Below, piece by piece: positions 20,276 through 42,801 of a DNA stretch of 64,000 nt. A model generated the notes under the pieces. The model was not told where the DNA came from. It ran no database searches and saw nothing but the letters and a program-made list of their open reading frames with translations. The DNA is from Acidimicrobiaceae bacterium (GTDB lineage Bacteria > Actinomycetota > Acidimicrobiia > Acidimicrobiales > RAAP-2), in NCBI GenBank assembly GCA_003152015.1, contig PLZF01000043.1:1-64000 (forward strand). Direction: 5' to 3'. The position numbers and the translations under genes were made by a program. The number at the start of each line of letters is the position of its first letter. The stretch's first letter is position 1.

Positions 20276-20376
20276 GCCGGCAGTGTACGGCTGAAACACC
20301 TACCGTGCGAGGAAAATCAATGCAGTCGGTAGTTGCCGACGCCCGGTCGGCAATCAAACGTGTTCGGCGCCGATCT

Positions 20377-20721: not shown

Positions 20722-20842
20722 GCTGGCTGATCCCTTTGCTGTCTGCGCTGCTCGGATTAGCAGTCTAGTGCAGCGAGTGCCAATACGGATTCGGAATCGG
20801 GTTGTCCTCTACACTGTCGTCCGTGATCGATCGGACCTTGGT

Positions 20843-21328
20843 ATGACTGACCGGAGTCTCAGTCATCTGGACCCTCTGGGTGGGGCACGCATGGTGGACG
20901 TTTCCCCCAAGGAACCCACCCATCGGCGAGCATTGGCCCGGTGCCGGGTGGCGATGAAGCCCGAGACCACCTCCAAAGTTGCCAACAACGCCATTACCAA
21001 AGGCGACGTGCTGGCGGCGGCCCGGGTGGCCGGCATTCAGGCGGCAAAACGGACAGCCGACCTGGTTCCCATGTGTCACCCGCTGCTGGTGGGGGCTGTG
21101 CACGTCGACTTCACCATCGGTGACGACTATGTCGAGGTCGAGGCCAAGGTGGAGACAGTCGACCGCACCGGGGTCGAGATGGAGGCCATGACGGCCTGTG
21201 CCATCGCCGCCCTCACCGTCTACGACATGTGCAAGACCACCGACCGCACCATGAGCATCGGGGAGCTGATGCTGTGGGAGAAGAACGGTGGCAGCTCAGG
21301 AATGTGGAAGAGGGAACCTACAGCCTGA
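20843..21328 (+). CDS. moaC: cyclic pyranopterin monophosphate synthase MoaC
   Basis: AITKGDVLAAARVAGIQAAKRTADLVPMCHPLLVGAVHVDF...TGVEMEAMTACAIAALTVYDMCKTTDRTM. Confidence 0.96.
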   Translation: MTDRSLSHLDPLGGARMVDVSPKEPTHRRALARCRVAMKPETTSKVANNAITKGDVLAAARVAGIQAAKRTADLVPMCHPLLVGAVHVDFTIGDDYVEVEAKVETVDRTGVEMEAMTACAIAALTVYDMCKTTDRTMSIGELMLWEKNGGSSGMWKREPTA

Positions 21329-21366
21329 GGTTGGAATCTACGACGAGATGATCATCGCCCCCGCGC

Positions 21367-22557: not shown

Positions 22558-22719
22558 GAACTCCTCCCCCGGTGTACTCAGTGCCGGTCGTGGCAGACGC
22601 GCACACTACGGGTACAACCCGCGACCTGCCGAGTCAGTGTATCCGACGGGTTGGCGTGACACTTATCGCGAAGCCGGTTGAGAAATGGGTTCAATCCAGG
22701 CGATGCCAGACTCGGATTC

Positions 22720-23019
22720 CTAACCCAGCGCGGCGGATCTCAGTTCGTCGAGCGTGAGCTCTGTTGTTGCTTCACCACCGCATTGAGCGCAATGTTCCAC
22801 GTGGCGCCAGCTCCTGAGGAGACGGGTTCCTTCCTCATTGAGCAGAACCACGAACGATTCCGACATTGGGTCAATCTCCAAACCGAAGCAAGGCCTCCAC
22901 GCCGTCGAGGCCTGTCCGGCACTCGTATCGAACCCCTTCAGAATCCGCTTGAACCTCGAGTTCTCGAGGTCGACCACCCACGTGCTGTGGCACGACTCAA
23001 TGACCATGGGTTCCATACA
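22720..23019 (-). CDS. small conserved-looking hypothetical protein
   Basis: MEPMVIESCHSTWVVDLENSRFKRILKGFD...LEIDPMSESFVVLLNEEGTRLLRSWRHVEHCAQCGGEATTELTLDELRSAALG. Confidence 0.65.
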   Translation of the reverse strand, partial: CMEPMVIESCHSTWVVDLENSRFKRILKGFDTSAGQASTAWRPCFGLEIDPMSESFVVLLNEEGTRLLRSWRHVEHCAQCGGEATTELTLDELRSAALG

Positions 23020-23225
23020 GTGATTGTGCCACCCAAATACTGGATTCAAACTGCAGAATCATTGCGGTCGTGTGACAGTTGCCACCGGGCACAATGAGCG
23101 AGGGGCGGATTGTTCGTGGTCCTTGGGTCAAAACTGATTCTGACCAGGGAATTGTCTACGGCGACGAGACATGCAACCCGCACCCCAATCCCAGACGGCA
23201 ATAGCCGCACAAACACTTTAAAGCT

Positions 23226-23247
23226 CCTGATCAGTGGGCTGATCAGG
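23226..23247 (-). terminator. hairpin CCTGATCAG-TGGG/CCCA-CTGATCAGG at the prepilin peptidase 3' end
   Basis: Perfect 9-bp inverted repeat, 4-nt loop, overlapping the pilD stop and followed on the minus strand by AGCTTTAAAG. Confidence 0.65.
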
Positions 23248-24085
23248 CGAACACCGCGAGACCTACTGCCGTTCCCAACGCCACCGACACGACCATCGGC
23301 AGACCGATCACGCGGTGTAGGAGTCCGGTTGAAGATGAAATGGCTGGGTTCTCGTCACTCCGCGGGGCGATCTTCCCTGATTTCCGGTTGAAAGCGACGC
23401 AGAGGAGAAAGACGGCGAGAAAGACCCCTGCCCCGATTCCGGCGGCCACGAGTCCAAGGCCTCCGAGCCAACAGCCTGCGGGAATCAGGGCGCTACGGCC
23501 GAAACCCTCCCGACAGTCGCACCCCGGATCCATTCGTCGCAACGCACTGAAGCCGACGATTCCGGCGAGTGTCCCGGCTTGAGCGCCTACGAGCACTGAC
23601 CAGTGGCTGCCGGCGGCAGCAATGATCACGAGAACTAGGTCGGCAATGGCTGTTCCCAAGGCCGCCACCAACAGCGGTGATCGCAGTTCGCCGGCATCGA
23701 TGAGGAGAATCGTGATGATGGTGGCGACCAACAGGCAGTAGGGAATGGTCATCAAGGAACCGTGCCTGGCCCATGCAATGAGGACGAAGGCCCCGGCGGT
23801 ACCCGCTTCGACCAGGGGGTATCGAATCGAAATGGCCTCCCGGCAGGTCCTGCAACGACCCCGTAGGACCACCCATGAGACGAGGGGCAAATTTTCCCAC
23901 CATGCCAGCTGGCGTTGACAGGTTGGACAGAATGACCGGGGTTTGGAGACCGAGAGTCCTCGAGGTATCCGGTAGACGACCACATTGAGGAACGAACCCA
24001 CCAGCAGCCCGATCACCAACGCAATTCCGAATATCACTGAGAGCGACACCATCACGGTGGTTGAGGAGATAGATTGAGTAGTCAT
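23243..24085 (-). CDS. pilD: prepilin peptidase (A24 family)
   Basis: FLNVVVYRIPRGLSVSKPRSFCPTCQRQLAWWENLPLVSWVVLRGRCRTCREAISIRYPLVE (CxxC...CxxC). Confidence 0.93.
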   Translation of the reverse strand: MTTQSISSTTVMVSLSVIFGIALVIGLLVGSFLNVVVYRIPRGLSVSKPRSFCPTCQRQLAWWENLPLVSWVVLRGRCRTCREAISIRYPLVEAGTAGAFVLIAWARHGSLMTIPYCLLVATIITILLIDAGELRSPLLVAALGTAIADLVLVIIAAAGSHWSVLVGAQAGTLAGIVGFSALRRMDPGCDCREGFGRSALIPAGCWLGGLGLVAAGIGAGVFLAVFLLCVAFNRKSGKIAPRSDENPAISSSTGLLHRVIGLPMVVSVALGTAVGLAVFA

Positions 24086-24318
24086 GATCGGTACTGGATC
24101 CCGGAATTGGTCCTTGAGCTGGGGGTCGAGAGGTGGCAGGGTGGAGTGCCGCAGAGATGGACCAAAGCCCGCGAACGGTATCACCGGGGGCGATCGGTAC
24201 GTTGATACGTGGGCCCGGCAACCTCCACCTCGGTGGCACCGTCACTCCTTGTGGGGAGGCGATCACCGAACAGGGGGACAGATCCAATGTTCACAGCGAA
24301 TGTGCCGATGAAGAAGCC

Positions 24319-26763
24319 ATGAGCGACGTCGACGCCATACGCACCCTGGCACGGGAACGCGACCTCGAATTTGTTGATCTCGATGCCCAGACGGTTGATA
24401 ACAGCACCGCCGAGGTTCTCCCTGAGGCGATAGCTCTACGCCTCCATGTGGTCGCCATCAAATGGAAGTCAGGGATCCCGGTGATTGCCGTCGCCAACCC
24501 CGATGACATCTTTGTCCTCGACACCATCCGCGCCTCCGTGGGTAGAGACTTCACGCTGGTTGTCGCCCCGCCTGAGCAGATCGTCAGGTACGTCGACCGA
24601 CTCTACGATGCGTCCCATGCGTCCGGGACGACCACGCCGACGGGTGCCGTTGCCGTTGCGCCCACAACTGTTCCGCCGCCGGTCCCGCTCCCGGCAATCC
24701 CGAACCCGTCAGTCATCTCGGCACGCCAGATCGCCACCCCTGCAGTCGACGATGGGTCGGAATCCCCATTGTACGGATCGGCATTTCTCCCGAAAGAGGG
24801 TTCGCCAAGCCAAGAGCCTCCAATCAATGGACATGGAGCCCAGTCGATTCCGCCGGCATCAATTGAGATCGGTACTGATCTAGCGCTACCTCCTGATGCC
24901 CTGGCGGCCAGTGCCTCCGAGTTGGCTGAGTTGGCACGCACGGCACGGCCGGCGAAGCCCACCGAACGGGTCGATTCGGCGGCGGAGACTGCCGATCTGG
25001 TTGACGAGGCGGTGGCAACCTTCGAGGGACAGCAAGCCGAACCGGAGTTGCTCACAGGGCTCGCGTCGACGTTGCCGCCGATGGCCAAGGTGCTGATCGA
25101 GGGGAATCGGGTGTCCTTGGCCGACATGGAGCTGGTCCTCGAGGAACACGATCGAAGTGGCCGGAGCATTGCCCGCATCCTGACGGCCAAGAAGTTAGTG
25201 ACCGAGGCCGACCTCATGTGGGGAATGGCTCACGAGATGGGCCTCGAGTTTGTCGATCTTGATACGGCCGGAGTCAAATTTACCGAGTCGGATATCATCC
25301 CCGAGGCGACGGCGCGCTATCACAACGTGCTGGTCATCTCCGATGACGCCAATGGGCTGGTCGTGGCCGCCTCCAATCCCACCGACGTGTTCGCCATGGA
25401 CGACCTCCGCACCATCATTGGCCGGAGCTTCACCATCGTGGTTGCCACCCGCAGCCAGATCAACGCCTACATCGGACGTGCCTATGGTGCCGGCGACGCC
25501 GCGGACATGGCCGAAACGGCCTCACTCGAGTTCGACCGGGAGGATCCCGGTGCCGCCATGGACGACATCCAGGCGGTTACCGAGGAAGCCCCGATTGTTC
25601 GGTATGTGAACCTTCTGATGGTCCAGGCGGTCAACGAGCGAGCGTCCGACATTCATGTGGAACCCACCGCCACCAACCTTCGGATCCGCTATCGCATCGA
25701 TGGGGTCCTCCATGACGTGTCGACTGCGCCCCGTTCCATTGCCGCGGCGGTGACGACCCGCTTGAAGGTGATGGCCGACATGAACATCGCCGAGCACCGG
25801 ATTCCCCAGGACGGTCGGATTTCGGTGACGATCGGGAACAAGGAGATCGACCTCCGGATGGCGACGTTGCCCACCATCCACGGAGAAAAAATCGTGATGA
25901 GGGTACTGGACAAATCGAGCGTTGTCCTCGGATTTCCCGATCTCGGTTTCGACGAAGATCTGTTGGCCACCTACGCGGGGATCTACACCAAGCCCTACGG
26001 GACCATTCTGGTCACCGGCCCCACCGGTTCGGGCAAGTCCACCACCCTCTACGCGACGCTCATCGCACTGAACTCACCGGAGAAGAACATCATCACCGTC
26101 GAGGACCCGGTGGAGCTCCGACTACAGGGCGTCAACCAGATTCAGCTCAATGTGAAGGCCGGCCTCACCTTCGCCTCGGCGCTGAAGTCGATTCTGCGAT
26201 CCGATCCGGACATTGTGCTGGTCGGCGAAATCCGGGACAAGGAGACTGCGGTCATCGCCGTCGAGGCCTCCCTCACCGGCCACCTGGTGCTCGCGACCTT
26301 GCACACCAATAGCGCCGCAGCTACGCCGATGCGCCTGGTGGAGATGGGGCTGGAGCCATTCTTGGTCACCTCGTCGCTGACCGGGGTGTTGGCTCAGCGC
26401 CTGGCCCGCCGGCTCTGCAACCCCTGCAAAGAGGGTTACGACGTTACCGATGCGGATATCGTGGCGGCGGGATGGGAGGTAGAAGAGATGAGGGCCATTG
26501 AGGAGATCAGTGGCAAGCCCCATTTCTACCGGGCAAAAGGGTGCCCCGCCTGCGCGAATACGGGATACCGGGGCCGCAAGGCTTTGGCGGAGTTGATGCC
26601 GATGACCGAAGAGATCCAACGCTTGATTATTGAAGGAGGATCCGTGGACGACATCCATCGGATGGCCGTCTCGCAAGGGATGGTCACCTTGCGCCAGAGT
26701 GGCCTACGCAAAGCGATCGAGGGCGAAACGACCCTTGAGGAAGTGCTCCGGGTGGTGGCATGA
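24319..26763 (+). CDS. pilB: type IV pilus assembly ATPase PilB (GspE family), two N-terminal MshEN-like modules
   Basis: LVTGPTGSGKSTTLYATLIALN, ITVEDPVELRLQGVNQIQ, LRSDPDIVLVGEIRDKETAVIAVEASLTGHLVLATLHTN; C-terminal zinc CxxC pairs (CNPCKEGY, CPACANTGYRGR). Start at ATG 24319 is a choice; the ORF extends to 24133. Confidence 0.93.
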   Translation: MSDVDAIRTLARERDLEFVDLDAQTVDNSTAEVLPEAIALRLHVVAIKWKSGIPVIAVANPDDIFVLDTIRASVGRDFTLVVAPPEQIVRYVDRLYDASHASGTTTPTGAVAVAPTTVPPPVPLPAIPNPSVISARQIATPAVDDGSESPLYGSAFLPKEGSPSQEPPINGHGAQSIPPASIEIGTDLALPPDALAASASELAELARTARPAKPTERVDSAAETADLVDEAVATFEGQQAEPELLTGLASTLPPMAKVLIEGNRVSLADMELVLEEHDRSGRSIARILTAKKLVTEADLMWGMAHEMGLEFVDLDTAGVKFTESDIIPEATARYHNVLVISDDANGLVVAASNPTDVFAMDDLRTIIGRSFTIVVATRSQINAYIGRAYGAGDAADMAETASLEFDREDPGAAMDDIQAVTEEAPIVRYVNLLMVQAVNERASDIHVEPTATNLRIRYRIDGVLHDVSTAPRSIAAAVTTRLKVMADMNIAEHRIPQDGRISVTIGNKEIDLRMATLPTIHGEKIVMRVLDKSSVVLGFPDLGFDEDLLATYAGIYTKPYGTILVTGPTGSGKSTTLYATLIALNSPEKNIITVEDPVELRLQGVNQIQLNVKAGLTFASALKSILRSDPDIVLVGEIRDKETAVIAVEASLTGHLVLATLHTNSAAATPMRLVEMGLEPFLVTSSLTGVLAQRLARRLCNPCKEGYDVTDADIVAAGWEVEEMRAIEEISGKPHFYRAKGCPACANTGYRGRKALAELMPMTEEIQRLIIEGGSVDDIHRMAVSQGMVTLRQSGLRKAIEGETTLEEVLRVVA

Positions 26764-28370
26764 GCCCCGTCTCGTCGGACATCCGGGCCGAATGGTCGAC
26801 CAGATTGGCAGAAGCGCTGGTCAACGGTGGCTATGCCACCGAGTCCGACTTGTCGCCGCTGATGGCCGAAGCGGAGGCAACGGGCCGACCCTTGGCCACC
26901 ATACTGATTGAAAGGCAGGTGGCAACCCCGGGGGTGGTGGTGGGTGCCCAGGCTCAACTGGCTCAGCTGCCGGCGGTCGATCTGTTGTCGGCGGCACCCG
27001 AGCCGCACGTATCCGCTCTCATTCCCGAGGCTGTCGGCCGCGAGTACGAAGCGGTGGCGCTCAAACGCGAGGGAACCCAATTGGTGGTCGGTTTCGCCGA
27101 GCCCCCGGGGCCGCAGACCGTCGATACCCTCTCGGCCCTCATTGGCTTTCGGGTCATGCCGATGCTGGCCGATCCCACCGTCATCGCCCGGGTGTTGTCA
27201 TCGGGTCCTCTTCGCGTGGCAACTGAGAATGGAATCTCAGGGGCGAAGTCGGATGAGGACGAGGAGGCCACCCAGGGGATGCCTCCGATGGCGGTCGGCA
27301 ACGGTATGCCGTTGCATATCGATGACCTGTTGCGCTACGCGGTCTCGGTGGGAGCGTCGGATCTGCACCTGACCGCCGACATGCCCGCCTGCATCCGACT
27401 GAATGGTGCCATCCGCCCGATCGAGGGTTGTCCAACGTTGGAGAACGAAACCATTCGCGACATGGTGTTCGGGATCCTCCCGGCATCGCAGCGCGAGCGA
27501 TTCGAAGCTGACCACGAGTTGGATACCTCACATTCGATCGTCGACGTTGGCCGCTTCCGGATGAACGTCTCGATGCAACGAGGCACGGTGGCCGTCGCCA
27601 TGCGACCGATCCCCCACGAAATGCCGGCATTCGAGTCTCTTGGGATTCCCGAATCGGTCCGGGCCTTCGCTGAACTTCGGAGAGGTCTGGTGCTGGTCAC
27701 CGGGCCCACCGGTTCCGGAAAGTCCACCACCCTGGCGTCCTTGGTCGACATCATCAACCGCAGCAAGCCGTTGCACATTGTCACCATCGAGGACCCGATC
27801 GAGTTTCTCCATTCCCACAAGCGGTCGATCATCGACCAGCGAGAGATCGGCGAGGACACCAATTCGTTCTCCGAGGCCCTTCGTCGGGTATTGCGTCAGG
27901 ACCCCGATGTCATTCTGGTGGGGGAGCTCCGTGACCTCGAGACCATTTCGACGGCACTGACGGCGGCGGAGACCGGTCACCTGGTGTTCGCCACCGTCCA
28001 TACCCAAGATGCCGCCCAGACGGTGGACCGGATCATCGACGTGTTTCCCACCTCTCAACAAGAGCAGATCCGGGTGATGTTGGCGGCGACCCTCGAGGGT
28101 GTCGTCACTCAGCAGCTCCTGGTGAACAAAGAGGGGACGGGTCGGATCGCCTGCTGTGAGGTATTGGTCTGCACCACCGGGATCCGGAACCTCATTCGCA
28201 CGGTCAAGACACATCAGATCTACTCACTCATGCAGACGGGTAGTTCGTATGGGATGCAGACGATGGACCAGGGCCTGGCCAAATTGGTACGGGACGGGCT
28301 GATCTCCGAGAGCGTGGCGTTTGATCGCTCTCATAATGAAGACGACCTTCGGGCCCATCTCAACGCCTAA
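26760..28370 (+). CDS. PilT-like ATPase with N-terminal MshEN/GspE-N-like domain
   Basis: GRPLATILIERQVATPGVVV...ALIPEAVGREYEAVALKREGTQLVVGFAEP followed by a full PilT core (LVTGPTGSGKSTTLASLVDIIN, ASDLHLTADMPACIRLNG); ATGA overlap with pilB. Confidence 0.9.
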   Translation: MSPVSSDIRAEWSTRLAEALVNGGYATESDLSPLMAEAEATGRPLATILIERQVATPGVVVGAQAQLAQLPAVDLLSAAPEPHVSALIPEAVGREYEAVALKREGTQLVVGFAEPPGPQTVDTLSALIGFRVMPMLADPTVIARVLSSGPLRVATENGISGAKSDEDEEATQGMPPMAVGNGMPLHIDDLLRYAVSVGASDLHLTADMPACIRLNGAIRPIEGCPTLENETIRDMVFGILPASQRERFEADHELDTSHSIVDVGRFRMNVSMQRGTVAVAMRPIPHEMPAFESLGIPESVRAFAELRRGLVLVTGPTGSGKSTTLASLVDIINRSKPLHIVTIEDPIEFLHSHKRSIIDQREIGEDTNSFSEALRRVLRQDPDVILVGELRDLETISTALTAAETGHLVFATVHTQDAAQTVDRIIDVFPTSQQEQIRVMLAATLEGVVTQQLLVNKEGTGRIACCEVLVCTTGIRNLIRTVKTHQIYSLMQTGSSYGMQTMDQGLAKLVRDGLISESVAFDRSHNEDDLRAHLNA

Positions 28371-28402
28371 TCCGAAACAACAACCCTACGAACAGGGGAA
28401 CA

Positions 28403-29629
28403 GTGTCACTCACGTTTGAATACAAGGTTCGGGACCAATCGGGAAGCCTGGTAGAGGGGCAACTCGAGGGCGACAGCATGGCGTTGGTGGTTCGGAAGCT
28501 GCGCGAGATGGGCTACATGCCCATCGCTGTCACTCCGAAATCCAACATCAGCATGAAGACCGAGATCAAAATCCCGGGGATCTCCGACCGGGTCAAGCTG
28601 AAGGAAGTGGCGGTCGTCACTCGTCAGCTATCGACCATGGTCGATTCGGGACTGTCGGTGGTGCGCTCCCTCGGGATTCTGGTCGGCCAGGTCGAGAACA
28701 AGGAACTGGCACGGATCCTTTTGGCGGTGCGTCTCGACGTCGAGCACGGATCCGCTCTTTCGGTGGCCTGCGCCAAACACCCCAAGGTCTTCTCTGAGCT
28801 GTTCTGTACCCTTGTCCACGCCGGCGAGGTGGGCGGCAATCTCGATGATGTGTTGGGCAACTTGGCCACCACCATTGAAAAGCAGGCCAATCTCAATCGC
28901 ACCATCCGCTCGGCGATGACCTACCCGGCGGTGGTGTTGTCGGTGATGGTCGTCATCTTCACCGCCATGATCCTCTTCATCGTGCCGGTGTTTCAGAATC
29001 TCTTCAAGAGCCTGGGCGGGGCACTTCCACTGCCGACCCAAGTCCTCATTAACGTGTCGAAGATCATCTCCAGCCCGTGGGTACTGCTGATCATCGCTGT
29101 CATCATCGGGGGCATCTACGGCCTGAGGAAGTGGATCGCCACAGATAAGGGAAGAGTCAAGTGGGACCGGCTCATGTTGCGCCCTCCGATCTTCGGGCCG
29201 CTGTTTCACAAGGTGGCACTGGCCCGGGTCACCTCGACCCTGGCCTCGCTGATGAGCTCAGGTGTGCCCATTCTCGAGTCGTTGGACATTTGTGCTGACA
29301 CGGCCGGTAACCGCACGGTCGGCGATGTACTTCGTCAGGCAAAGGACGGGGTCCGCGAAGGGCGCCCCCTGGCCGATCCACTTCGTGAACATGAGGACGT
29401 TATTCCCTCTCTGGTCGTCCAGATGATCGAAGTAGGGGAGCAGACAGGTGCGCTCGACGACATGTTGAACAAGGTGGCCGAGTTCTACGACCAAGAGGTC
29501 GAGACAACTGTGAAGAACTTGACGGCTCTGCTCGAGCCGCTGCTCACAGTCTTTATGGGCATCGGCGTGGGCACCATGGTGATCTGTCTCTACCTGCCCA
29601 TGTTCAGCTATATCAAGCTGGTCCATTAG
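28403..29629 (+). CDS. pilC: type IV pilus inner-membrane protein PilC (GspF family)
   Basis: VVTRQLSTMVDSGLSVVRSLGIL...LFCTLVHAGEVGGNLDDVLGNLA...PSLVVQMIEVGEQTGALDDMLNKVAEFYDQEVE. Confidence 0.95.
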   Translation: MSLTFEYKVRDQSGSLVEGQLEGDSMALVVRKLREMGYMPIAVTPKSNISMKTEIKIPGISDRVKLKEVAVVTRQLSTMVDSGLSVVRSLGILVGQVENKELARILLAVRLDVEHGSALSVACAKHPKVFSELFCTLVHAGEVGGNLDDVLGNLATTIEKQANLNRTIRSAMTYPAVVLSVMVVIFTAMILFIVPVFQNLFKSLGGALPLPTQVLINVSKIISSPWVLLIIAVIIGGIYGLRKWIATDKGRVKWDRLMLRPPIFGPLFHKVALARVTSTLASLMSSGVPILESLDICADTAGNRTVGDVLRQAKDGVREGRPLADPLREHEDVIPSLVVQMIEVGEQTGALDDMLNKVAEFYDQEVETTVKNLTALLEPLLTVFMGIGVGTMVICLYLPMFSYIKLVH

Positions 29630-29720
29630 CCGAGGAGCTGTTGGTGGGGTGGAGATCACTCTTTGTAGAGGTAGCTGTCGCGTTTCGTGCACGGATTTCT
29701 ACTAAAATGCTGGTAAGAGG

Positions 29721-29745
29721 GTTAAACTTTTGCTAAAGTTCTAAC
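29721..29745. promoter_or_regulatory. AT-rich imperfect dyad GTTAAACTTT-TGCT-AAAGTTCTAAC in the pilA upstream region
   Basis: 10-bp arms with one bulge, about 105 bp upstream of the pilA ATG in an AT-rich pocket. Confidence 0.4.
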
Positions 29746-29849
29746 GCTTGTCTGCCGAAGATATGGGTAGCTACAAATAAATTGCCCCCGTGGCCAACTC
29801 GGATGCGGGACCCAGGTCCATTGACCGAAAACCAACACAGGAGGACATC

Positions 29850-30536
29850 ATGTTGTCAAGCCTCATACAGCGCTTGGGCGAGCGGCGTGCCGCTGAGTTC
29901 GAGGCAGAAGGATCGGCTGAAGCCGGTTTCACCCTCATCGAGCTGATGGTCGTACTGCTCATTTTGGCCATTTTGCTTGCCATCGCCATCCCTACGTTCC
30001 TCGGTGTGACGGGTTCGGCCAACGATCGGGCTGCTCAGTCCAACCTGAACACGGCGCTCACCAATGCGAAGACCGTCTATGAGCAAAGCAATCAGGCGTA
30101 CCCGACTACAGTGGCGACGCTTGCCGCAAGCATTATGAGCAATGAGCCATCGCTCCCGATGACCACCGCCCTCAACGTGACCGCCGGACAAGTCGGGGCA
30201 GTCACGGACACGGCCTTCAACACGAACGGGGCCATTCTCTTTTCCCTGGCGAAGAAGACCAATGAGTGTTGGTGGGTCGCTGACAACACCGCCACAATGG
30301 GTGCTACCCCGGGCCCGGCTGCCGCTGTACCGTGGAATTCTGCAGCTACAGCGCTCGCCCCCGCTGCCCAACTCGCTACTAAGACGGGGGTCCCGGAGAC
30401 ACAGGGAATCTTCTACGGTGTTTACAAGGAGGGTGCGGTAGAGGGGACTATCACAAATGGAGCTACCTGTGACACGACCACCCTTGGCACCGCCTCTTCG
30501 ATCGTCAGCACCACTGCGTTCCCGTCGGGAGAGTAA
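29850..30536 (+). CDS. pilA: type IV pilin (major pilin candidate)
   Basis: Prepilin motif EAEGSAEAG|FTLIELMVVLLILAILLAIAIPTF; AGGAGG SD before ATG 29850. Confidence 0.93.
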   Translation: MLSSLIQRLGERRAAEFEAEGSAEAGFTLIELMVVLLILAILLAIAIPTFLGVTGSANDRAAQSNLNTALTNAKTVYEQSNQAYPTTVATLAASIMSNEPSLPMTTALNVTAGQVGAVTDTAFNTNGAILFSLAKKTNECWWVADNTATMGATPGPAAAVPWNSAATALAPAAQLATKTGVPETQGIFYGVYKEGAVEGTITNGATCDTTTLGTASSIVSTTAFPSGE

Positions 30537-34016: not shown

Positions 34017-34328
34017 TTATTGATCGGTGTCATCGGGCGGCGGAGAGGTGGGATCGCGGTCGTGCTTGGCGTTCCGCTCACTGCGGCGCGCCGCCCGCTC
34101 CAACTGCCGTTCCACGTCGGCCAGGTCGGCCAAAGGCCAGGTGAGCATCACCGCCGCAGCCGCCCCTGCACCCGCCAATGCCAGCATCTGCCTGGGTGTC
34201 CACGGCGTGGCCTCTTCGTTTCGGCGCCTCACATGCCGGTGGCCGCCGACGATGGCGAGGGCGGCCAACCACAACACTGCCCACGCTGCAAGGAGTGGTT
34301 CCCAGGCATAGGGGTGGCCGGGGTTCAT
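34017..34328 (-). CDS. short membrane protein, N-terminus CtaG-like (possibly truncated or fused)
   Basis: MNPGHPYAWEPLLAAWAVLWLAALAIVGGHRHVRRR...TPRQMLALAGAGAAAAVMLTWPLADLA, then a charged tail DVERQLERAARRSERNAKHDRD. Confidence 0.5.
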   Translation of the reverse strand: MNPGHPYAWEPLLAAWAVLWLAALAIVGGHRHVRRRNEEATPWTPRQMLALAGAGAAAAVMLTWPLADLADVERQLERAARRSERNAKHDRDPTSPPPDDTDQ

Positions 34329-34395
34329 GGGCCCACTTCCACATAGGGGTGGCACCGGGCGTGGGCCCACTTCCACATAGGGGTGGCACCGGGCG
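34328..34395. repeat. perfect tandem duplication of a 34-bp unit (TGGGCCCACTTCCACATAGGGGTGGCACCGGGCG x2)
   Basis: Read directly: copy 1 34328-34361, copy 2 34362-34395. Confidence 0.95.
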
Positions 34396-34418: not shown

Positions 34419-35384
34419 ATGGCACGTCTCGATCGGCTCGAACGAGTGACCGACCTGTTGTTGGTATTGCTCGATACCCCCCGCCCGCTGAGCCTCCGAG
34501 AGATTGCCGATCGGGTGCCGGGCTACCCCGAAGGCCACGCCGCCCGGCGTCAGGCTTTCGAACGCGACAAGCGCCTGTTGCGCGACGAAGGCGTGCCGGT
34601 GCTGGCCGAAGCGCTGGAGGGGCACGACCAGGTGGGCTACCGGGCCGACCCCGATGCTTACTTTCTGCCTGACCTGGGCCTCGACCAGGACGAGCAGGCT
34701 GCGCTCAACCTGGCCGTCGCCGGCGTCCATCTCGGCGAGCCTAGCGGCCGAACCGCCCTTTCCAAATTGGGCGCCACCGGGGAGCCCCCGCTTCTCGGTG
34801 CCCCTTCGATGCCGGTGGTCGATCTGCCGTCGATGACCGAACTACCGGCCCTCCCCGTGCTGTTCGACGCGGTGCGCCAATCGGCCACCGTCAGTTTTCT
34901 GTATCGCGGCAATGCCCGACACGTCGATGTGGGCGCCATCCGCTTCCGCCGGGGGTACTGGTACATGGTGGGATTCGACCGCGACCGGGGTGACGCCCGT
35001 ACGTTCCGTGTGGACCGGGTGGAGTCACTGCCCGAGGTGGGACCACCCTCCTCGGGCCAACTACCCGACGGGTTCGACCCCGCGAATACCTTTTCGGTCG
35101 ACCCATGGAAGTTCGGTAGTGGCGAGGAGACCGACGCCGACGTGCTGGTCGACGCGGCTGAAGCTGGACGGGTCATCGGTGAGTTGGGTGAAGGAGCAGT
35201 GGTCGAGCGACGGGACGACGGGACGGTGGTGGTGAGGTTGGCGGTTACCGACCAGCAAGCGCTGGTGACCTGGGTGCTCGATTGGTTGGATCACGCCGAG
35301 GTGCTGGGGCCACCCGAGGTGAGAATGGCGGTCGTCGATCGGCTGACCTCGATCATCGACACCGGTGGATCGGTCAGCTCATGA
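34419..35384 (+). CDS. pafB: WYL-domain transcriptional regulator PafB-like
   Basis: RLERVTDLLLVLLDTPRPLSLREIADRVPGYPEGHAARRQAFERDKRLLRDEGVPV; WYL core VGAIRFRRGYWYMVGFDRDRGDARTFRVDRVES. Confidence 0.88.
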   Translation: MARLDRLERVTDLLLVLLDTPRPLSLREIADRVPGYPEGHAARRQAFERDKRLLRDEGVPVLAEALEGHDQVGYRADPDAYFLPDLGLDQDEQAALNLAVAGVHLGEPSGRTALSKLGATGEPPLLGAPSMPVVDLPSMTELPALPVLFDAVRQSATVSFLYRGNARHVDVGAIRFRRGYWYMVGFDRDRGDARTFRVDRVESLPEVGPPSSGQLPDGFDPANTFSVDPWKFGSGEETDADVLVDAAEAGRVIGELGEGAVVERRDDGTVVVRLAVTDQQALVTWVLDWLDHAEVLGPPEVRMAVVDRLTSIIDTGGSVSS

Positions 35385-36349
35385 GCATCCCCACAGACAC
35401 TGCCGGTCGACTGCGACAACTGCTGGCCATCCTGGCCTGGCTGGCCCAGGTGGGTGAGGCGCCGGTCGATGAGTTGGCCACCCGATTCGACCTGACACCC
35501 GAGGCCCTCGTCACCGAACTCGAGTTGGCCGCGTGTTGTGGGCTCCCCCCGTATACGCCCGACCAATTGATGGAGATAGTCGTCACCGACACCACCGTGT
35601 CGACCCGTCTCGGCAGCGCCCTGTCCCGGCCCCGGCGGTTGAGCCCGGTCGAGGGGTTCGCCCTGGCGGCATCGGCCCGTGGGCTGTTGGCCGTCCCGGG
35701 CAGTGACGAGGACGGTGCCCTCTCCCGTGCACTCGGGAAGCTCGAGACGGCACTGGGGGCTGAGCGCCTGGTCATCGACCTCGACACTCCGCCGATGCTG
35801 GCCGTCGTCAGTGATGCCGCCGCGGCGGGAGTAAGTCTGGAGATCCATTACTACTCGGCGTCGAGCGACCGTCAGAGTGAACGGGAGATCACCCCTTTGC
35901 GGGTCTTCGCCTCCGAGGGGCACTGGTACGTGGACGCCACTTGCGCCCAGGCCGGTGAAGTCCGCCGGTTCCGGATCGATCGGATCGATGCGGCCCGGGT
36001 CATCGAGGGGTCAAGTGGCGTCGGGGATCGCTCGGCGATGGACAGCGAGCCCACTGGGTTCGAAGCCTTCGTCCCCGGGCCGGATACCCGCCGGGTCCGA
36101 CTCTCCCTCGATCCCGCCTTGGCCTGGATGGTGGAGTCGATCCCCACCGTGGCCCCGGTCGAACGGGCGGACGACCGCCTGGTGGTGGAGGTGGTGGTGG
36201 GAGGGGATGCCTGGCTCGAGCGGTTACTGCTGCGCTTGGGAACCGGGGCCGCCGTGGTCGATCCCTCCGAGGACGCCGGCCTGGCCGCCGAGGCCGCCGC
36301 TCGCATTCTGCTCAGATATGGTCTGGATATCAAAAATAAAGAAAAATAA
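35381..36349 (+). CDS. pafC: WYL-domain transcriptional regulator PafC-like
   Basis: ATGA overlap with pafB; LEIHYYSASSDRQSEREITPLRVFASEGHWYVDATCAQAGEVRRFRIDRIDAARVI. Confidence 0.88.
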   Translation: MSIPTDTAGRLRQLLAILAWLAQVGEAPVDELATRFDLTPEALVTELELAACCGLPPYTPDQLMEIVVTDTTVSTRLGSALSRPRRLSPVEGFALAASARGLLAVPGSDEDGALSRALGKLETALGAERLVIDLDTPPMLAVVSDAAAAGVSLEIHYYSASSDRQSEREITPLRVFASEGHWYVDATCAQAGEVRRFRIDRIDAARVIEGSSGVGDRSAMDSEPTGFEAFVPGPDTRRVRLSLDPALAWMVESIPTVAPVERADDRLVVEVVVGGDAWLERLLLRLGTGAAVVDPSEDAGLAAEAAARILLRYGLDIKNKEK

Positions 36350-36368: not shown

Positions 36369-37733
36369 TTGAACCAGTACGGTTCGGGACGTGAGAATCC
36401 CGCCGTGCTGAAGCTCCATGTCGTCCATGTGGGCCACCACGGGTACTACGTGGAGGGCCGCCAGTTTGGACACGGCGACGACTTCGATGTGGCCATCGAG
36501 TCCCCGGGGGCATGGACAGGGCCTGCGGCCCCGTCGCTCGGTCTCGGTGGGGTGGTCGATCCCGAGACCTTTGGACGGGTGATGGAGGGTTTCGACCCGG
36601 ATTCAGGACGCCGGCTCCGGCTGGGCCGGGGTGCTGCCAGCGTGGCCGGGTTCGATCTCACCTTCTGTGCCCCGAAGTCGGTGAGCCTGTTGGAGGCGCT
36701 GGCCCCCAGAGAGATCGCCACCGAAGTGGGCGCCGGCCACGATGCCGCCGTGGCCGAGGCCAGCGCCTATCTCTCCCGCACCGCGGTGGGGGTCCGTCGG
36801 GGAAGCGGCCGGTCACTGCAGCTTCTGCCATCGACCGGCATGGTGGCCGGCGGCTTCCGCCACCTGACCAGTCGGGCCCTCGATCCCCATCTGCATACCC
36901 ATGTGGTGGCGGCCAACCTGGCCCAAGGGGTCGATGGCACCTGGTCGGCGGCCGACGGCCGGCGGGTCTTCGCCCATGCTCGGGCGGCCGGGTCGATCTA
37001 TCAGGCGAGGCTCCGTTTCGAACTGTCGGACAGGCTGGGTGCTGCGTGGGAGGTCCGGCCTTCGGGGCTTGGCGATGTGGTGGGTGTCGACGGGGGACTG
37101 CGGCGGCTCTTCTCGCAGAGATCAGCAGACATCGAAGAGTTTGTTGCGGTTCGCCACGGAGGTGCCTCTGGCCGTCACCCCGGCGCCTTCTATGCCACCC
37201 GACCGGACAAGGACCTCACCCGATCCCTCGAGTCACTGGTCTCGTCGTGGAAAGGCCGCGCCGCGGACTTCGGGTTCGACCTTGGCGATCTCTCCCAGGT
37301 GGTGGGCCGGGGTGCTCAGTTGGGGCGAGAGGTGGGCGGCGGTGTTGATCCACAACGCATGGTCGACCGGCTGGAGGGAGCCGGACGACCCGAGGGTTCG
37401 ATGGCCCGCCGTGATCTGGTGGCGTTGGTGGCATCAACCTCACTGCGAGGAGCCACCGTGGCCGGCGTCGACTCCACGGTGGACCGCATCGTCACCTCAG
37501 TGGGGTCGAGAGCTGAAACAGATAAGGGTCGTGAGCCGAGGTGGCGGAGGGGGGATGTGTTGTCGGTGGCTCGCGAGCGGGGGAGTGAACTGACGGTTCG
37601 ATCCGAGCGGGAGGTCGCGCCCTCGGCTGCAGTCGATCGACGGGCCGGACGGGAAAGGGAGACGGCGCGCCACCTGGACCGCACCGGAGAGCGGCGTCGT
37701 GAGCGCGGCCGGGACCACGGACTGGGGCTGTGA
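36369..37733 (+). CDS. MobF/TrwC-type relaxase domain protein (no helicase domain)
   Basis: GHHGYYVEGRQFGHGDD...FDLTFCAPKSVSLLEALAP...GGFRHLTSRALDPHLHTHVVAANLAQGVDGTW (HUH/three-His motif). Confidence 0.9.
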   Translation: MNQYGSGRENPAVLKLHVVHVGHHGYYVEGRQFGHGDDFDVAIESPGAWTGPAAPSLGLGGVVDPETFGRVMEGFDPDSGRRLRLGRGAASVAGFDLTFCAPKSVSLLEALAPREIATEVGAGHDAAVAEASAYLSRTAVGVRRGSGRSLQLLPSTGMVAGGFRHLTSRALDPHLHTHVVAANLAQGVDGTWSAADGRRVFAHARAAGSIYQARLRFELSDRLGAAWEVRPSGLGDVVGVDGGLRRLFSQRSADIEEFVAVRHGGASGRHPGAFYATRPDKDLTRSLESLVSSWKGRAADFGFDLGDLSQVVGRGAQLGREVGGGVDPQRMVDRLEGAGRPEGSMARRDLVALVASTSLRGATVAGVDSTVDRIVTSVGSRAETDKGREPRWRRGDVLSVARERGSELTVRSEREVAPSAAVDRRAGRERETARHLDRTGERRRERGRDHGLGL

Positions 37734-37753
37734 TGGTGATCTGTCTGTATCGG

Positions 37754-39232
37754 TTAGCGCTCGACGCCGTGGTCGGTCCGTCGGAGTTGTTGGCGGCGAT
37801 GGGCCCGCCCGGAATCGCTCAACATCTTCCACGGCTCCACCGAGTGGGCCGGTGCCAGCCGAACCCATGTCGGTTGATTCCGCTCATCGAAGGCCAGCGC
37901 CATGCCCGGCGATCCTCGGGTGATGAGGTCAGGGGGCAGTCGCCGACGCCACTGGGTGGAGGCCGACTCGCCCGCGTGGGGACGGCCTCCGGTGACCATG
38001 TCGGAGAAAGGATGACCCGAGGGAGCCCGTCCCGAGGACACCGACCGGGTGGTGATCTCTTCGTCACCGGCCAAGGTGGAGAGCGCCTCGAGTGTCCGCA
38101 CGTCTCCGATGCCGGGCAGCACCACAGTGGTGCCGAACAGCGAAGGAAATCCGTCGGCCTCATCGGGCCAACGCTGCCGGGCCTGGGAGAGATCCTGCAG
38201 GCTGGCCAATGTCACCACCCCCTGTCCACCGCCTTCGCTGATCATCGACGGCAGGTTGGGAAGGGGGGCGATGTTGGTCACCTCGTCGAGCGCCAGCAGC
38301 ACCGGCGGATTCGGTCGAGCCTCGCCGACGGCCGGCTCGGAGGCACGTTGGTAGGCCGCGGTGCGCACGTCTTCGACCAGTCCGACCACCATGGGAGCGA
38401 CAAGGGCCTGACGATGAGCCGGGGCACAGATGAAGATGGTGTCAGCCGAGTCCACGAAGTGGATGGCATCGAAATCAGGGTCGGCGGTGACCGCCAGTGC
38501 CCGTTCGGTCCGGAAACCGGTAAGGGCACCCGACGCGGTGGACCAGATGCCACTCAGCTCCCGTTCATCGGTGGCGGCCATGCCTTCCAGGGCGTTGGTG
38601 GCCAGTTCTGCGATCCCTCCGGGGGTGCCGGCCAGGATTGTCTGGGCCGGAAGCGATTTTCGACGGTCCACCCAGGTCAGGACGGTCCGCATATCGGCTC
38701 CGTCGAGTGCCGCGGCGTAGAGAAGTGGTGCCAGCAACGCTTGTGCCCGCTCATTCCAGTGGGTGCCGTCGTTCCGCGCCGTCCCCCGTGATCCCGCCGC
38801 GGCGGCAACCTGCACCAGAGATCGGGCCGAGCCCATCGCCCCGTCCCACGTTCCACATGCCTGCAGCGGGGACCAACGCAGTGGTTCGAGATCTCCACTC
38901 GGGGTGGTCGAACCGGTGGGGTCGAAGAGAAGACATCTCCCCGATTGGGACCGTGCTGCCGCGGTGGCGTCGAGCACGTCCGGTTTGGTCGAGGTGGAGA
39001 CAACCGGACCGTTGGCGGCCAACACGTTCGGAATGATCAACGAAGATGTCTTTCCTGAGCGCGGTGGACCCAACATCATCACCGACATTTCGGGTGGGGC
39101 GAAGTACCAATCATCGCCGTCGTGTCCGAGATAGATGCCGAACTCGGCAGAGGCCGATGCTGCGCGCGCGGCGCGCAGGTACTTCGTTTCGCGCTGTTTA
39201 TCGGTCGAATGCGAAAAAAATGTCATATCCAC
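37754..39232 (-). CDS. VirD4/TraG-like coupling ATPase (T4CP), apparently lacking N-terminal TM helices
   Basis: MMLGPPRSGKTSSLIIPNVLAANGPVVSTSTKPDVLDATAAARS (Walker A), PPVLLALDEVTNIAPLPNLPSMISEGGGQGVVTLASLQDLSQARQRW (Walker B). Confidence 0.88.
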   Translation of the reverse strand: MDMTFFSHSTDKQRETKYLRAARAASASAEFGIYLGHDGDDWYFAPPEMSVMMLGPPRSGKTSSLIIPNVLAANGPVVSTSTKPDVLDATAAARSQSGRCLLFDPTGSTTPSGDLEPLRWSPLQACGTWDGAMGSARSLVQVAAAAGSRGTARNDGTHWNERAQALLAPLLYAAALDGADMRTVLTWVDRRKSLPAQTILAGTPGGIAELATNALEGMAATDERELSGIWSTASGALTGFRTERALAVTADPDFDAIHFVDSADTIFICAPAHRQALVAPMVVGLVEDVRTAAYQRASEPAVGEARPNPPVLLALDEVTNIAPLPNLPSMISEGGGQGVVTLASLQDLSQARQRWPDEADGFPSLFGTTVVLPGIGDVRTLEALSTLAGDEEITTRSVSSGRAPSGHPFSDMVTGGRPHAGESASTQWRRRLPPDLITRGSPGMALAFDERNQPTWVRLAPAHSVEPWKMLSDSGRAHRRQQLRRTDHGVER

Positions 39233-39518
39233 CTAGCGCCGCAATCGCGGTTGGCAATGCCTCGTTGTGTCGGCGAACGTCAAGTGTTCGCAACTCGACC
39301 GCGTGTCTCGCGTAGGTAAATAATCCTTGCAAACAAACAGGTTTTTGTCCATGGTCAATTGCGTGCGGCGTGTAGTGGCGCTGTTGACGTGCGAAGCCGT
39401 CGCCGAATGTGGCGTTCTCCGCGAAGCGCGGTCGCGCGTCAAAACACGCGAGGGTCCTTGATCTGAGCCCAAAAAACCATTTAGATATTTATGATTGCGT
39501 ATCGCTGAGGAGGTGATC

Positions 39519-40199
39519 GTGAACAAATCGCAACTAGTCCGAGCAGTCAGTGAGACAACATCGTTGGGTCGCCGAACTGTCGAGGATGTGGTTGATGCTT
39601 TGTTCGATTCGGTCGTCACCGCGGTTCAGTCTGGACAGAAGGTAACGGTGATTGGTTTCGGGACATTCAACCCGGCCACCCGTTCCGCTCGTTTGGGTCG
39701 AAATCCGCGGACCGGTGCAGCGGTACCAATCCCGGCGTCGAAAGGTGTCCGGTTCGCCACCAGTTCAGCGTTCAAATCCGCGTTGAACTCCAAGGAGGGA
39801 GCACCCATGGCAGTGAAGAAAGCTGCGAAGAAGGCAGTCCGTAAGGCTCCGGCCCGTAAGACCGCCGCAAAGAAGACAACCGCGAAGAAGGCAGTGAAGA
39901 AGGCTCCGGCCCGCAAGACTGCTGCAAAGAAGTCCGCGGCGAAGAAGGCAGTCCGTAAGGCTCCGGCCCGCAAGACCGCCGCTAAGAAGGCCACGGCCAA
40001 GAAGGCAGTGCGTAAGGCTCCGGCCCGTAAGACCGCCGCCAAGAAGACTGCCGCCAAGAAGGCAGTGCGCAAGGCTCCGGCCCGTAAGACCGCCGCCAAG
40101 AAGACTGCCGCCAAGAAGGCAGTGCGCAAGGCTCCGGCCCGTAAGGCGGCGGCCAGGAAGACTGCGAAAAAGGCCGTCCGCAAGACAGCCCGCAGGTAG
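39519..40199 (+). CDS. hupB: HU-family nucleoid protein with histone H1-like Lys/Ala/Arg repeat tail
   Basis: VNKSQLVRAVSETTSLGRRTVEDVVDALFDSVVTAVQSGQKVTVIGFGTFNPATRSARLGRNPRTGAAVPIPASKGVRF + (AKKAVRKAPARKTAAKKTA)n. Confidence 0.93.
   Translation: MNKSQLVRAVSETTSLGRRTVEDVVDALFDSVVTAVQSGQKVTVIGFGTFNPATRSARLGRNPRTGAAVPIPASKGVRFATSSAFKSALNSKEGAPMAVKKAAKKAVRKAPARKTAAKKTTAKKAVKKAPARKTAAKKSAAKKAVRKAPARKTAAKKATAKKAVRKAPARKTAAKKTAAKKAVRKAPARKTAAKKTAAKKAVRKAPARKAAARKTAKKAVRKTARR
39831..40190 (+). repeat. tandem 57-bp coding repeat (19-aa unit AKKAVRKAPARKTAAKKTA, about 6 copies)
   Basis: Read from the HU-H1 ORF translation. Confidence 0.88.
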
Positions 40200-40227
40200 T
40201 TGATCGACGGCTCTGCCGTCATCAGAT

Positions 40228-40265: not shown

Positions 40266-41102
40266 CTACAGGTCGCCCATCAGGTGGAAGGCTTCGCCGA
40301 CCGGAAGGGTGGCCAGGGCGCCATGGGCGGCCAGCTGGTGATGCACCTTGGCCGCGAAGGATTCGACGTCGGCGTCCGGTGCTGGGTCATCTTGTCGACC
40401 CGAATCAATCCCCATGGTGGTGACTTGTTGGCTGGCGTGACACAGCAGGGCATCGATCTTCGCCGCCTCGAACCCGGCCGCATTTTCGACGTGGTTGGGC
40501 AGGTCTGCCTCCCACAGCAACAGAGACGTAGGCCGATGAGGGGCCGGGCCGATGTCGGGGAAGAAGTGGGGGTCTCGGGCGGCCACCAACGCGTCAAGGC
40601 TGAGGAAGCCGGCGTTGCGATGGTCGGGATGGAGTCGGTATCGCCTCCACGGGTCGTGAGCGAGCACCACGGCCGGACGGAGCGAACGGATGACACGGGC
40701 CACCTCTCGCCGCTCCTCCTCTCCGTTGCTGAGTTCGCCGTCCACCCTGCCCAGGAACAGCACCCGGTCGTCGGAGGACGGGCCTGACGCTGCCCCGTCG
40801 ATAACCGCGGCCGCGGCTCGACACTCAACCACTCGGGCCGCCACCAGGGCGGCCAGGTCTTCGTCGGGATCCCAACTTCCCTTGGACCCATCGGTCAGCA
40901 CCAGGTGATGTACCCGGCATCCGGCATCAGCCCACTTGGCCAGCGTGGCGCCGCACCCGAATTCGATGTCGTCGGGGTGCGCACCGATAGCCAAAGCACT
41001 TGACGGGATGGGGAGATTGACCGTCACCGGTCCATCGATGAGCAGGTCGCCCACCGGGAGTTCGCTCGGCTGTGACCATCGTTCGTCGTCGGGACGGTTC
41101 AT
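40266..41102 (-). CDS. PIG-L/LmbE family N-acetylglucosaminyl deacetylase
   Basis: ALAIGAHPDDIEFGCGATLAKWADAGCRVHHLVLTDGSKG; HDPWRRYRLHPDHRNAGFLSLDAL. Confidence 0.92.
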   Translation of the reverse strand: MNRPDDERWSQPSELPVGDLLIDGPVTVNLPIPSSALAIGAHPDDIEFGCGATLAKWADAGCRVHHLVLTDGSKGSWDPDEDLAALVAARVVECRAAAAVIDGAASGPSSDDRVLFLGRVDGELSNGEEERREVARVIRSLRPAVVLAHDPWRRYRLHPDHRNAGFLSLDALVAARDPHFFPDIGPAPHRPTSLLLWEADLPNHVENAAGFEAAKIDALLCHASQQVTTMGIDSGRQDDPAPDADVESFAAKVHHQLAAHGALATLPVGEAFHLMGDL

Positions 41103-41707
41103 GAGAACGCGGAGGCGGGCGTGGTGGAGACGGGGACGACATCAGCGGGTTCGTCGATGTCCCAGGCGAGATCGGGACGATCGAGGACCCGGACGGGAAG
41201 GCCGGTGCGGGCAGCTTCGATCCGGTGGCGGGCGAAGGAGCCGGGCCCGTAGGAGAACCGGAACCCGGCGTCGGTCGGGATCACGATGACATTGGTGCCG
41301 TTTCCGAATCGATCGGGCACCAGGGTCACCCCGGGAGCGTCTCCGACCGAAAAGAGGTCCGAAGCCCGGGGGAGATCGGCGTGTGCCACCGTCACCTGTT
41401 CGACCCCCCGCTGAGACAGGAGCTCCACGCCCGCCTCCACCGCGCCGTTGAGGCCCCGTCCTGGTTCCCAGACGACCAACGCACCCCGCGACCGGGCCCA
41501 GGTGGCTACTTCGTTGTCGTCGCAGACCACGGCGACCGGCAATGGAAACGCAGCCGCCAATACCCGATGGGCCATGGCGGCGGCCAGCGCGGCCCGTTCG
41601 CTGTCACTCAACGCGGTATCGAGGCGACCCTTGGCCTCTCTGAATGCCTTGACCGGCACCAGCACGGCTCGGGGTCCGAAGGGCAACGCGTCGCCCGGGA
41701 ACTGCAT
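41099..41707 (-). CDS. cofC: 2-phospho-L-lactate guanylyltransferase (F420 biosynthesis)
   Basis: AVLVPVKAFREAKGRLDTALSDSERAALAAAM...VTVAHADLPRA...GVTLVPDRFGNGTNVIVIPTDAGFRFSYGPGSFARHRIEA. Confidence 0.92.
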   Translation of the reverse strand: MQFPGDALPFGPRAVLVPVKAFREAKGRLDTALSDSERAALAAAMAHRVLAAAFPLPVAVVCDDNEVATWARSRGALVVWEPGRGLNGAVEAGVELLSQRGVEQVTVAHADLPRASDLFSVGDAPGVTLVPDRFGNGTNVIVIPTDAGFRFSYGPGSFARHRIEAARTGLPVRVLDRPDLAWDIDEPADVVPVSTTPASAFS

Positions 41708-41793
41708 CCGTTGGTCGGCGCCTTCCACTCCGTCAGTGTAGGGGGGTCCCGACGGGGCCACCGTCCGGCCAGCGTGGCGCATAGTGTGGCCCC

Positions 41794-42801
41794 GTGTCAG
41801 AAAAAGTTGCCGTCATCGGCGCAGGATCCTGGGGAACAACGGTGGCGGCACTGGCAGCGGGCAATGCCCCCACCGTGCTGTGGGCTCGGGATCCGGCGTT
41901 GGCGGAAACCCTTCGCACCGAGCACCGTAATCCGTCCTACCTCCCCGATTTCCGCCTGCCCGACCGGCTCGACGCCACTGCTGACATCGAAGCCGCGGTG
42001 TCGGGGGCTTCATTGGTGATCATGGCGGTTCCATCCCACGGTTTCCGCGCCGTGGCCACCGATCTGGCCGCGGTGCTCGTCGACGGCACTCCGGTCCTCA
42101 GTCTCACCAAGGGATTGGAACAGAAGAGCCACCTTCGCATGACCGAACTGTTGGCCGAGGTGGTGCCGAACAGCCCGACCGGCGTGCTCACCGGGCCCAA
42201 CCTGGCTTCCGAGGTAGCGGCCGGCCAACCGACAGCCGGGGTGGTTGCCCTGGCCGACGGGGACCAGGCGCGCTGGGTCCAGGGCCTGTTGGTGTCGGAT
42301 ACGTTCCGGGTTTACACCAACGGAGACGTCATCGGGTGCGAGATCGCCGGGGCCCTCAAGAACGTGCTGGCGGTGGCGGCCGGCATCTCGGACGGTCTGG
42401 GGTTCGGCGATAACTCCCGAGCGGCAATGATCACCCGCGGCCTGGCCGAGATGGCTCGGTTGGGCCAGCAGCTGGGTGGGGACATCATCACCTTCGGCGG
42501 TTTGGCCGGGGTGGGAGATCTGGTCGCCACCTGCACCAGTTCGAAGAGTCGGAACCATGCCGTCGGGGTGGCTCTCGGCCAGGGGCGGTCACTGGCCGAT
42601 GTGATGGGCGAGATGCGGATGGTGGCCGAGGGAGTGAAGACCGCCCGGCCCATGGTCGAGTTGGCTGCCTCCGCCGATGTGGAGGTCCCAATCGCCTCGC
42701 AAGTGGCCGACATGATCGATGGGATCCAGAGTCCGGCGGAGGCAATCGCCGCTCTCATGCAGCGTCCGGCCACCTCCGAGTTCGGGAATCTTCGACCATG
42801 A
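41794..42801 (+). CDS. gpsA: glycerol-3-phosphate dehydrogenase [NAD(P)+]
   Basis: VAVIGAGSWGTTVAALAAGNAPTVLWARDP; LSLTKGLEQ; GCEIAGALKNVLAVAAGISDGLGFGDNSRAAMITRGLAEM. Confidence 0.96.
   Translation: MSEKVAVIGAGSWGTTVAALAAGNAPTVLWARDPALAETLRTEHRNPSYLPDFRLPDRLDATADIEAAVSGASLVIMAVPSHGFRAVATDLAAVLVDGTPVLSLTKGLEQKSHLRMTELLAEVVPNSPTGVLTGPNLASEVAAGQPTAGVVALADGDQARWVQGLLVSDTFRVYTNGDVIGCEIAGALKNVLAVAAGISDGLGFGDNSRAAMITRGLAEMARLGQQLGGDIITFGGLAGVGDLVATCTSSKSRNHAVGVALGQGRSLADVMGEMRMVAEGVKTARPMVELAASADVEVPIASQVADMIDGIQSPAEAIAALMQRPATSEFGNLRP

Follow-up and report, generated by a model that had tools for sequence, protein, structure and literature searches.

A helicase-less MobF relaxase and a VirD4-type coupling ATPase beside pafBC: possible DNA-processing arm of a domesticated conjugation system in Acidimicrobiales

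In the 64,000-nucleotide stretch of an Acidimicrobiaceae genome analyzed here (the window), a relaxase gene (REL) follows pafBC and faces a coupling ATPase gene (T4CP1), and we regard it as an evenly poised proposition that these two genes supply the DNA-processing part of a domesticated, vertically inherited conjugation system shared by one large section of the Acidimicrobiales. That the two genes themselves are domesticated on the chromosome and inherited vertically we hold with high confidence. Conjugation machinery is regarded as belonging to mobile elements, and the open-access literature on Acidimicrobiia relaxases and on domesticated relaxase/coupling pairs yielded no description of this system.

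REL (36369..37733, plus strand) encodes a MobF/TrwC-type relaxase domain protein of 454 amino acids when read from its TTG codon, and the family alignment favors the GTG at 36405 as the likely true start, giving 442 amino acids. The protein matches Pfam PF08751 (TrwC; 217 bits, amino acids 27 to 300) and the MobF model NF041492 (194.8 bits against a cutoff of 100), and a PDB sequence search aligns it with TrwC of R388 at 29% identity across the relaxase domain. Consistent with this, its AF2 model (pLDDT 84) matches TrwC 1osb with an E value of 8e-19 and a target TM score of 0.86, so that by both sequence and fold the closest solved relatives are the TrwC/TraI relaxase domains. A single tyrosine pair, Y26/Y27, is equivalent to TrwC Y18/Y19; the catalytic Y26 (36444-36446, plus strand) and the metal-binding residues H165, H176, and H178 (36861-36902, plus strand) are invariant across homologues. 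The TrwC-type HUH domain, the N-terminal tyrosine, and the three-histidine site together assign REL, as judged from its sequence, to the MobF (MOBF) family. Two MobF traits have no match in REL, namely, the second catalytic tyrosine (TrwC Y26) and the C-terminal RecD-like helicase with its Walker A motif; Pfam finds no helicase domain behind the relaxase domain, and the remainder of the protein is a mostly helical tail. The first-pass annotation had proposed a helicase-less MobF relaxase, and the Pfam match and TrwC fold bear this out; the YY that it listed is the first tyrosine pair only, the second pair being gone, and the three histidines are to be placed at H165, H176, and H178.

The same combination recurs throughout the family. 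The first catalytic tyrosine and the histidine triad are present in all 57 complete pafBC-linked RELs, even where overall identity falls below 30%, and the helicase Walker A motif has been lost from all 57, including forms of 675 to 1063 amino acids. Most carry one tyrosine pair, and some of the long ones retain residual helicase-like sequence (AAA_30 at 59 bits in one 1063-amino-acid member). REL sizes form a series of 1063, 1039, 928, 912, 833, 786, 775, 675, 571, 454, and 330 amino acids, as would be expected had a full relaxase-helicase at the pafBC address been shortened little by little from its C terminus. Walker A is still present in the ICE-type relaxases of the same genomes (GQAGTGKS, for example), most of which, where the N terminus is complete, have two tyrosine pairs. 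We propose that losing the helicase and the second tyrosine was tolerable because there is no complete element to unwind and recircularize. A single-tyrosine, helicase-free relaxase is an experiment of nature on which parts of MobF remain necessary without plasmid recircularization.

T4CP1 (37754..39232, minus strand) lies convergent with REL in the window and encodes a VirD4/TraG-type coupling ATPase of 492 amino acids (PF02534, 85 bits; PF12696, 70 bits), with a Walker A motif, GPPRSGKT, at amino acids 55 to 62 (39047-39070, minus strand) and a Walker B motif, LALDE, around amino acids 313 to 317 (about 38282-38299, minus strand). Both Walker motifs are kept in homologues, in which a family motif, QDLSQARxRW, is invariant. 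A PDB sequence search with T4CP1 returned no match; its AF2 model (pLDDT 91) matches the fold of the VirD4-type ATPases Cagbeta and TrwB-deltaN70. Pfam, the model, and the fold search thus all place a T4SS-DNA_transf ATPase core together with an all-alpha domain in T4CP1, as in VirD4/TraG proteins, but the N-terminal transmembrane anchor of those proteins is missing. No transmembrane segment precedes Walker A, and in homologues the sequence ahead of this motif has a median length of 41 amino acids and is not hydrophobic, the three exceptions among 45 being over-long gene calls. T4CP1 is therefore in keeping with its earlier description as a coupling protein with Walker A and B motifs, a near-N-terminal Walker A, and no membrane segments, and would be a soluble, probably hexameric ATPase. 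Its orthologues form a group of their own, scoring 345 to 705 bits against 215 to 320 bits for transmembrane-anchored and ICE paralogues. The fold search also returned the HerA and DndH ATPases, more weakly, as might be expected if an HUH nickase and a HerA/VirD4-like ATPase formed an anti-phage or anti-plasmid defense pair. We consider this highly improbable, given that PADLOC does not recognize REL and matches T4CP1 only marginally and that the two genes have been kept at one address by vertical descent, in contrast to the usual turnover of defense genes.

The constant upstream neighbor of REL, as judged by synteny, is a pafB-like WYL regulator gene (34419..35384, plus strand; Pfam WYL/WCX), followed by a pafC-like WYL regulator gene (35381..36349, plus strand; Pfam HTH_PafC), with REL next on the same strand. 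The gap between pafC and REL has a median of 59 bp and is at most 200 bp in 40 of 53 loci, and because of the shared strand and short spacing, pafB, pafC, and REL probably form one operon. A perfect 34-bp tandem duplication lies directly upstream of pafB (34328-34395). Divergent from T4CP1 is a gene for an HU-like nucleoid protein with a Lys/Ala-rich tandem tail (39495..40199, plus strand; PF00216), which synteny identifies as a conserved neighbor in part of the family; 57-bp tandem repeats in six registers occupy the tail region (39768-40217). Beyond it, at 40266..42801, lie genes for a PIG-L deacetylase (minus strand; Pfam), CofC (minus strand), and GpsA (plus strand), which recur in synteny within the same family; these housekeeping genes anchor the locus at its chromosomal address. 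No oriT was identified: the T4CP1-HU interval, searched for one, is conserved at the genus level only and has weak inverted repeats, with nothing shared across genera. A PafBC promoter consensus had no hit anywhere in the window, a result that we treat as uninformative. The window also contains a type IV pilus cluster (16406-30536) with pilM-, pilT-, pilB-, and pilC-like genes and an N-methylated pilin gene, 4 to 18 kb upstream of pafBC-REL. The archaeal Ced system works together with a UV-induced type IV pilus. As candidate functional partners, however, type IV pilus genes are suggestive at most: of the 54 REL+paf loci fetched, 14 contain them, and they are missing from the vicinity of REL in streamlined genomes and in the majority of other families.

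The locus is conserved far beyond the source genome. The arrangement pafB-pafC-REL convergent with T4CP1, commonly followed by HU, PIG-L, CofC, and GpsA, was seen in approximately 40 refetched neighborhoods (outside the window, genes were delimited with a simple home-made caller), with REL identities of 30 to 60% across genera. The relatives that carry names are Acidimicrobiales, Acidimicrobiia, or Actinobacteria MAGs. A REL homologue was found in 50 of 61 genomes searched (the genome's own and relatives), and nearly every genome of the same GTDB family has one short copy. Almost all genomes examined have REL next to pafBC, in many cases facing T4CP1, and within the same family T4CP1 is usually there; other families show the same gene order or have T4CP1 relocated while REL still adjoins pafBC. 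In our order-level sample of 248 Acidimicrobiales genomes, T4CP1 orthologues are present in 76, spread over 19 families. In outgroup families of the order, pafBC is present but neither REL nor T4CP1 lies within 1.5 kb of it, and no strong T4CP1 orthologue (345 to 705 bits) turned up outside the order among the 247 genomes of a class-level sample and the 347 genomes of a phylum-level sample. Plasmid relatives are only distant, at 31 to 38% identity (about 31% for REL and 34 to 38% for the coupling protein), and no homologues of either protein were found on viral contigs. Within the genus, dN/dS of REL and T4CP1 is 0.14 to 0.25, like that of the flanking housekeeping genes. Ten sampled same-family genomes of 1.5 to 2.2 Mb, which are streamlined, retain REL, T4CP1, and VirB4, and the complete genome G067 (2,158,157 bp), taken as Acidimicrobium ferrooxidans, has REL, T4CP1, and the type IV secretion system (T4SS) described below, its 675-amino-acid REL lying 7 kb from pafBC. 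A. ferrooxidans has a single replicon and no extrachromosomal elements (PMC3035218).

These data bear directly on the mobile-element readings. The first-pass annotation had left a choice between a stripped remnant of a mobilizable element and a domesticated DNA-processing pair, with conservation beside pafBC to mean domestication. Such conservation is what we found, in many genera and families and together with purifying selection and invariant catalytic residues, and it therefore strongly supports a domesticated pair and leads us to reject the remnant. Nor did an intact ICE or mobilizable element fit: the REL/T4CP1 locus has no tRNA gene, no integrase, and no convincing flanking att repeats, and the distribution is not sporadic. 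Decay of such an element in this lineage would account for helicase loss, for the size gradient from 1063 to about 330 amino acids, and for an interrupted virB4 in the source genome (see below), but we give it very little credence in view of the order-wide fixed address, the invariant active sites, the low dN/dS, the retention in streamlined genomes, and the lack of an integrase or att sites.

A paralogue of T4CP1, T4CP2, which scores about 215 to 320 bits with the T4CP1 profile, pointed us to a T4SS of five genes, consisting of VirB2-like, VirB6-like, SCO6880-like, and VirB4-like proteins and T4CP2. In about 16 families this T4SS has a single address, next to serS and a senX3/regX3-like pair, with ctaA/ctaB and a ROK kinase gene often close by, so that its parts, too, sit at a fixed chromosomal address and are vertically inherited. 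The source genome has two T4SS loci, both outside the window. The earlier observation that no T4SS is visible therefore holds for the window but not for the genome, and the "minimal pair" is real but incomplete: since an equally conserved chromosomal T4SS is present in the same genomes, REL and T4CP1 probably make up one half of a system with two loci. VirB4 was found in 74 of 76 T4CP1 genomes and in 28 of 172 others (Fisher P = 8e-37, a value that ignores phylogeny; the counts were collected by hand from result tables). Across 28 genomes, distance matrices of T4CP1 and VirB4, encoded at unlinked loci, correlate with an r of 0.73 (Mantel P < 0.0005), and those of REL and VirB4 correlate with an r of 0.65. 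SerS as a housekeeping reference gave weak, nonsignificant Pearson values of 0.13 to 0.21 against T4CP1 and VirB4, perhaps owing to outlier pairs, and we therefore rely on the T4CP1-VirB4, REL-VirB4, VirB4-GpsA, and T4CP1-pafC comparisons. Because the two loci are unlinked, the case for a partnership rests on co-occurrence and coevolution, from which we consider it reasonably likely that REL and T4CP1 work with the serS-linked T4SS.

ICE-type VirB4 copies in the same genomes (L108, L109, and L113) fall in a separate clade (94/94), in VirB4 trees that are otherwise only partly resolved, and one ICE-type T4SS copy has a transglycosylase/NlpC gene that is absent from the fixed copies. In the genome from which the window comes, L108 (G000:C37:91000-99200) is an intact, separate T4SS with an NlpC/SLT hydrolase, and L108 and L119 (G000:C9) carry ICE-type T4SS parts with a full-length MobF relaxase-helicase that has Walker A; such parts could supply a channel. 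The serS-linked virB4 of this genome is split at about codon 290, in the Walker B region, by an integrated element with an 18-bp duplicated core, ATCCTCTsCAACCTCGGG, that has one mismatch (G000:C85, L137:10093-10110, and G000:C107, L107:8622-8639). The congener G002 has an intact empty site in virB4 at 95% identity, and virB4 of G001 and G008 is split at the same point. An integrating element appears to target this conserved gene. Some phages target comK in a comparable way. The channel may be off in the source strain unless the element excises or an ICE copy substitutes. G028 (4 contigs, 2.0 Mb) has REL and T4CP1 and no VirB4 hit, possibly because the channel has been lost naturally or because the assembly has a gap. 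Together, the interrupted virB4 and G028 suggest that the channel may be dispensable; VirB4 also occurs without T4CP1, in the 28 of 172 genomes noted above.

How might the two loci work together? REL, expressed with pafBC, would nick one chromosomal strand through Tyr26 and the HUH metal center and remain covalently bound to the 5' end. T4CP1 would then take up the REL-ssDNA complex and, with the transmembrane-anchored T4CP2 and VirB4, would feed it through the small T4SS, the proposed channel locus reading serS, senX3/regX3-like, VirB2L, VirB6L, SCO6880L, VirB4, and T4CP2. What is moved would be DNA of the host itself, transferred between kin cells or released, rather than a mobile element. 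With a catalytically preserved relaxase, two coupling ATPases, a minimal channel, and no element, transport of host ssDNA would be the simplest use. As judged from the genes, cell-to-cell chromosomal transfer is a possibility that we place just short of even. More tentatively, the system may represent core-genome, relaxase-driven conjugation of the host chromosome expressed with the ssDNA-sensing regulator PafBC, also in streamlined lineages and A. ferrooxidans, a counterpart of Ced that keeps its nickase, in effect programmed Hfr-like sex without a plasmid. Bacteria with REL, T4CP1, and the T4SS may therefore own a machine that moves their own chromosomal DNA.

The position of REL in the pafBC operon is also what would be expected if REL and T4CP1 had been domesticated for an intracellular job, processing or pumping chromosomal DNA in repair of damage-associated ssDNA, resolution, or segregation, with the T4SS-like complex working at the septum or envelope and not between cells. 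The missing membrane anchors of T4CP1 and the absence of a VirB4 hit in G028 point in the same direction, as does the effect of the Streptomyces cmdABCDEF genes, which encode SCO6880/SCO6881-like proteins, on chromosome segregation and sporulation (PMC2782261). Even so, we think this explanation unlikely, if the most substantial of the rivals, because T4CP1 is accompanied by a VirB2-like/VirB6-like/VirB4/transmembrane-T4CP channel, which fits trans-envelope translocation better. Secretion of ssDNA or of the relaxase protein, as eDNA into the medium or biofilm or as an effector, with no directed chromosome transfer, would draw on the same chromosomal parts list of relaxase, coupling protein, and T4SS, and the loss of the second tyrosine and the helicase implies that plasmid-style termination is not needed. 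Although sequence data cannot separate secretion from transfer, pure protein secretion would not need a catalytic Tyr/HUH site, yet this site is invariant, and we rate the secretion reading as rather improbable. Returning to the domesticated conjugation system, we find the pafBC operon position notable because mycobacterial PafBC is a damage-response activator triggered by ssDNA (PMC11804915, PMC6789036) and archaeal Ced is UV induced (PMC9905601); the system is perhaps linked to DNA damage in a similar way. The position may instead be just an old insertion site.

The domesticated T4SSs known so far are either archaeal, without a relaxase, or bacterial secretors of protein or DNA, and no relaxase is known from archaea. 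REL shares the HUH fold, the histidine triad, and the first catalytic tyrosine with the MobF relaxase-helicases TrwC of R388 and TraI of F; unlike them, it lacks the second tyrosine and the helicase ATPase and lies off any mobile element, behind pafBC. Similarly, T4CP1 shares the RecA-like ATPase, the all-alpha domain, and the Walker motifs with VirD4, TrwB, and Cagbeta, but its homologues lack the N-terminal transmembrane segments. The ancestral parts list is that of actinobacterial T4SS-type ICEs with a MobF relaxase (PMC3218068), which are present in the same genomes (L108 and L119). The ICE sets are mobile, with an intact helicase Walker A, a double tyrosine pair, and, in L108, a peptidoglycan hydrolase, whereas the domesticated set stays at fixed addresses. 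Mycobacterial distributive conjugal transfer is ESX dependent, using type VII secretion, and the gonococcal GGI, whose T4SS releases DNA without directed cell-to-cell transfer, is a horizontally acquired island. Both offer precedents for plasmid-free transfer or release of chromosomal DNA (the former cited in PMC9905601). The cmdABCDEF genes of Streptomyces coelicolor (SCO4126-4131) likewise encode a chromosomal T4SS-like membrane complex, and CmdC and CmdD have been described as resembling SCO6880 and SCO6881, proteins whose like occur in the Acidimicrobiales T4SS; no relaxase has been described for the cmd system, however, and its reported phenotype concerns differentiation and chromosome segregation, not transfer (PMC2782261). 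Ced and Ted DNA import in Sulfolobales and Thermoproteales, UV inducible in the case of Sulfolobales Ced, is likewise a chromosomal, domesticated conjugation T4SS with VirB2-, VirB4-, and VirB6-like parts (PMC9905601). Compared with Ced and Ted, the proposed Acidimicrobiales system has, in addition, kept a relaxase of the MobF family and a pair of VirD4-type coupling ATPases.
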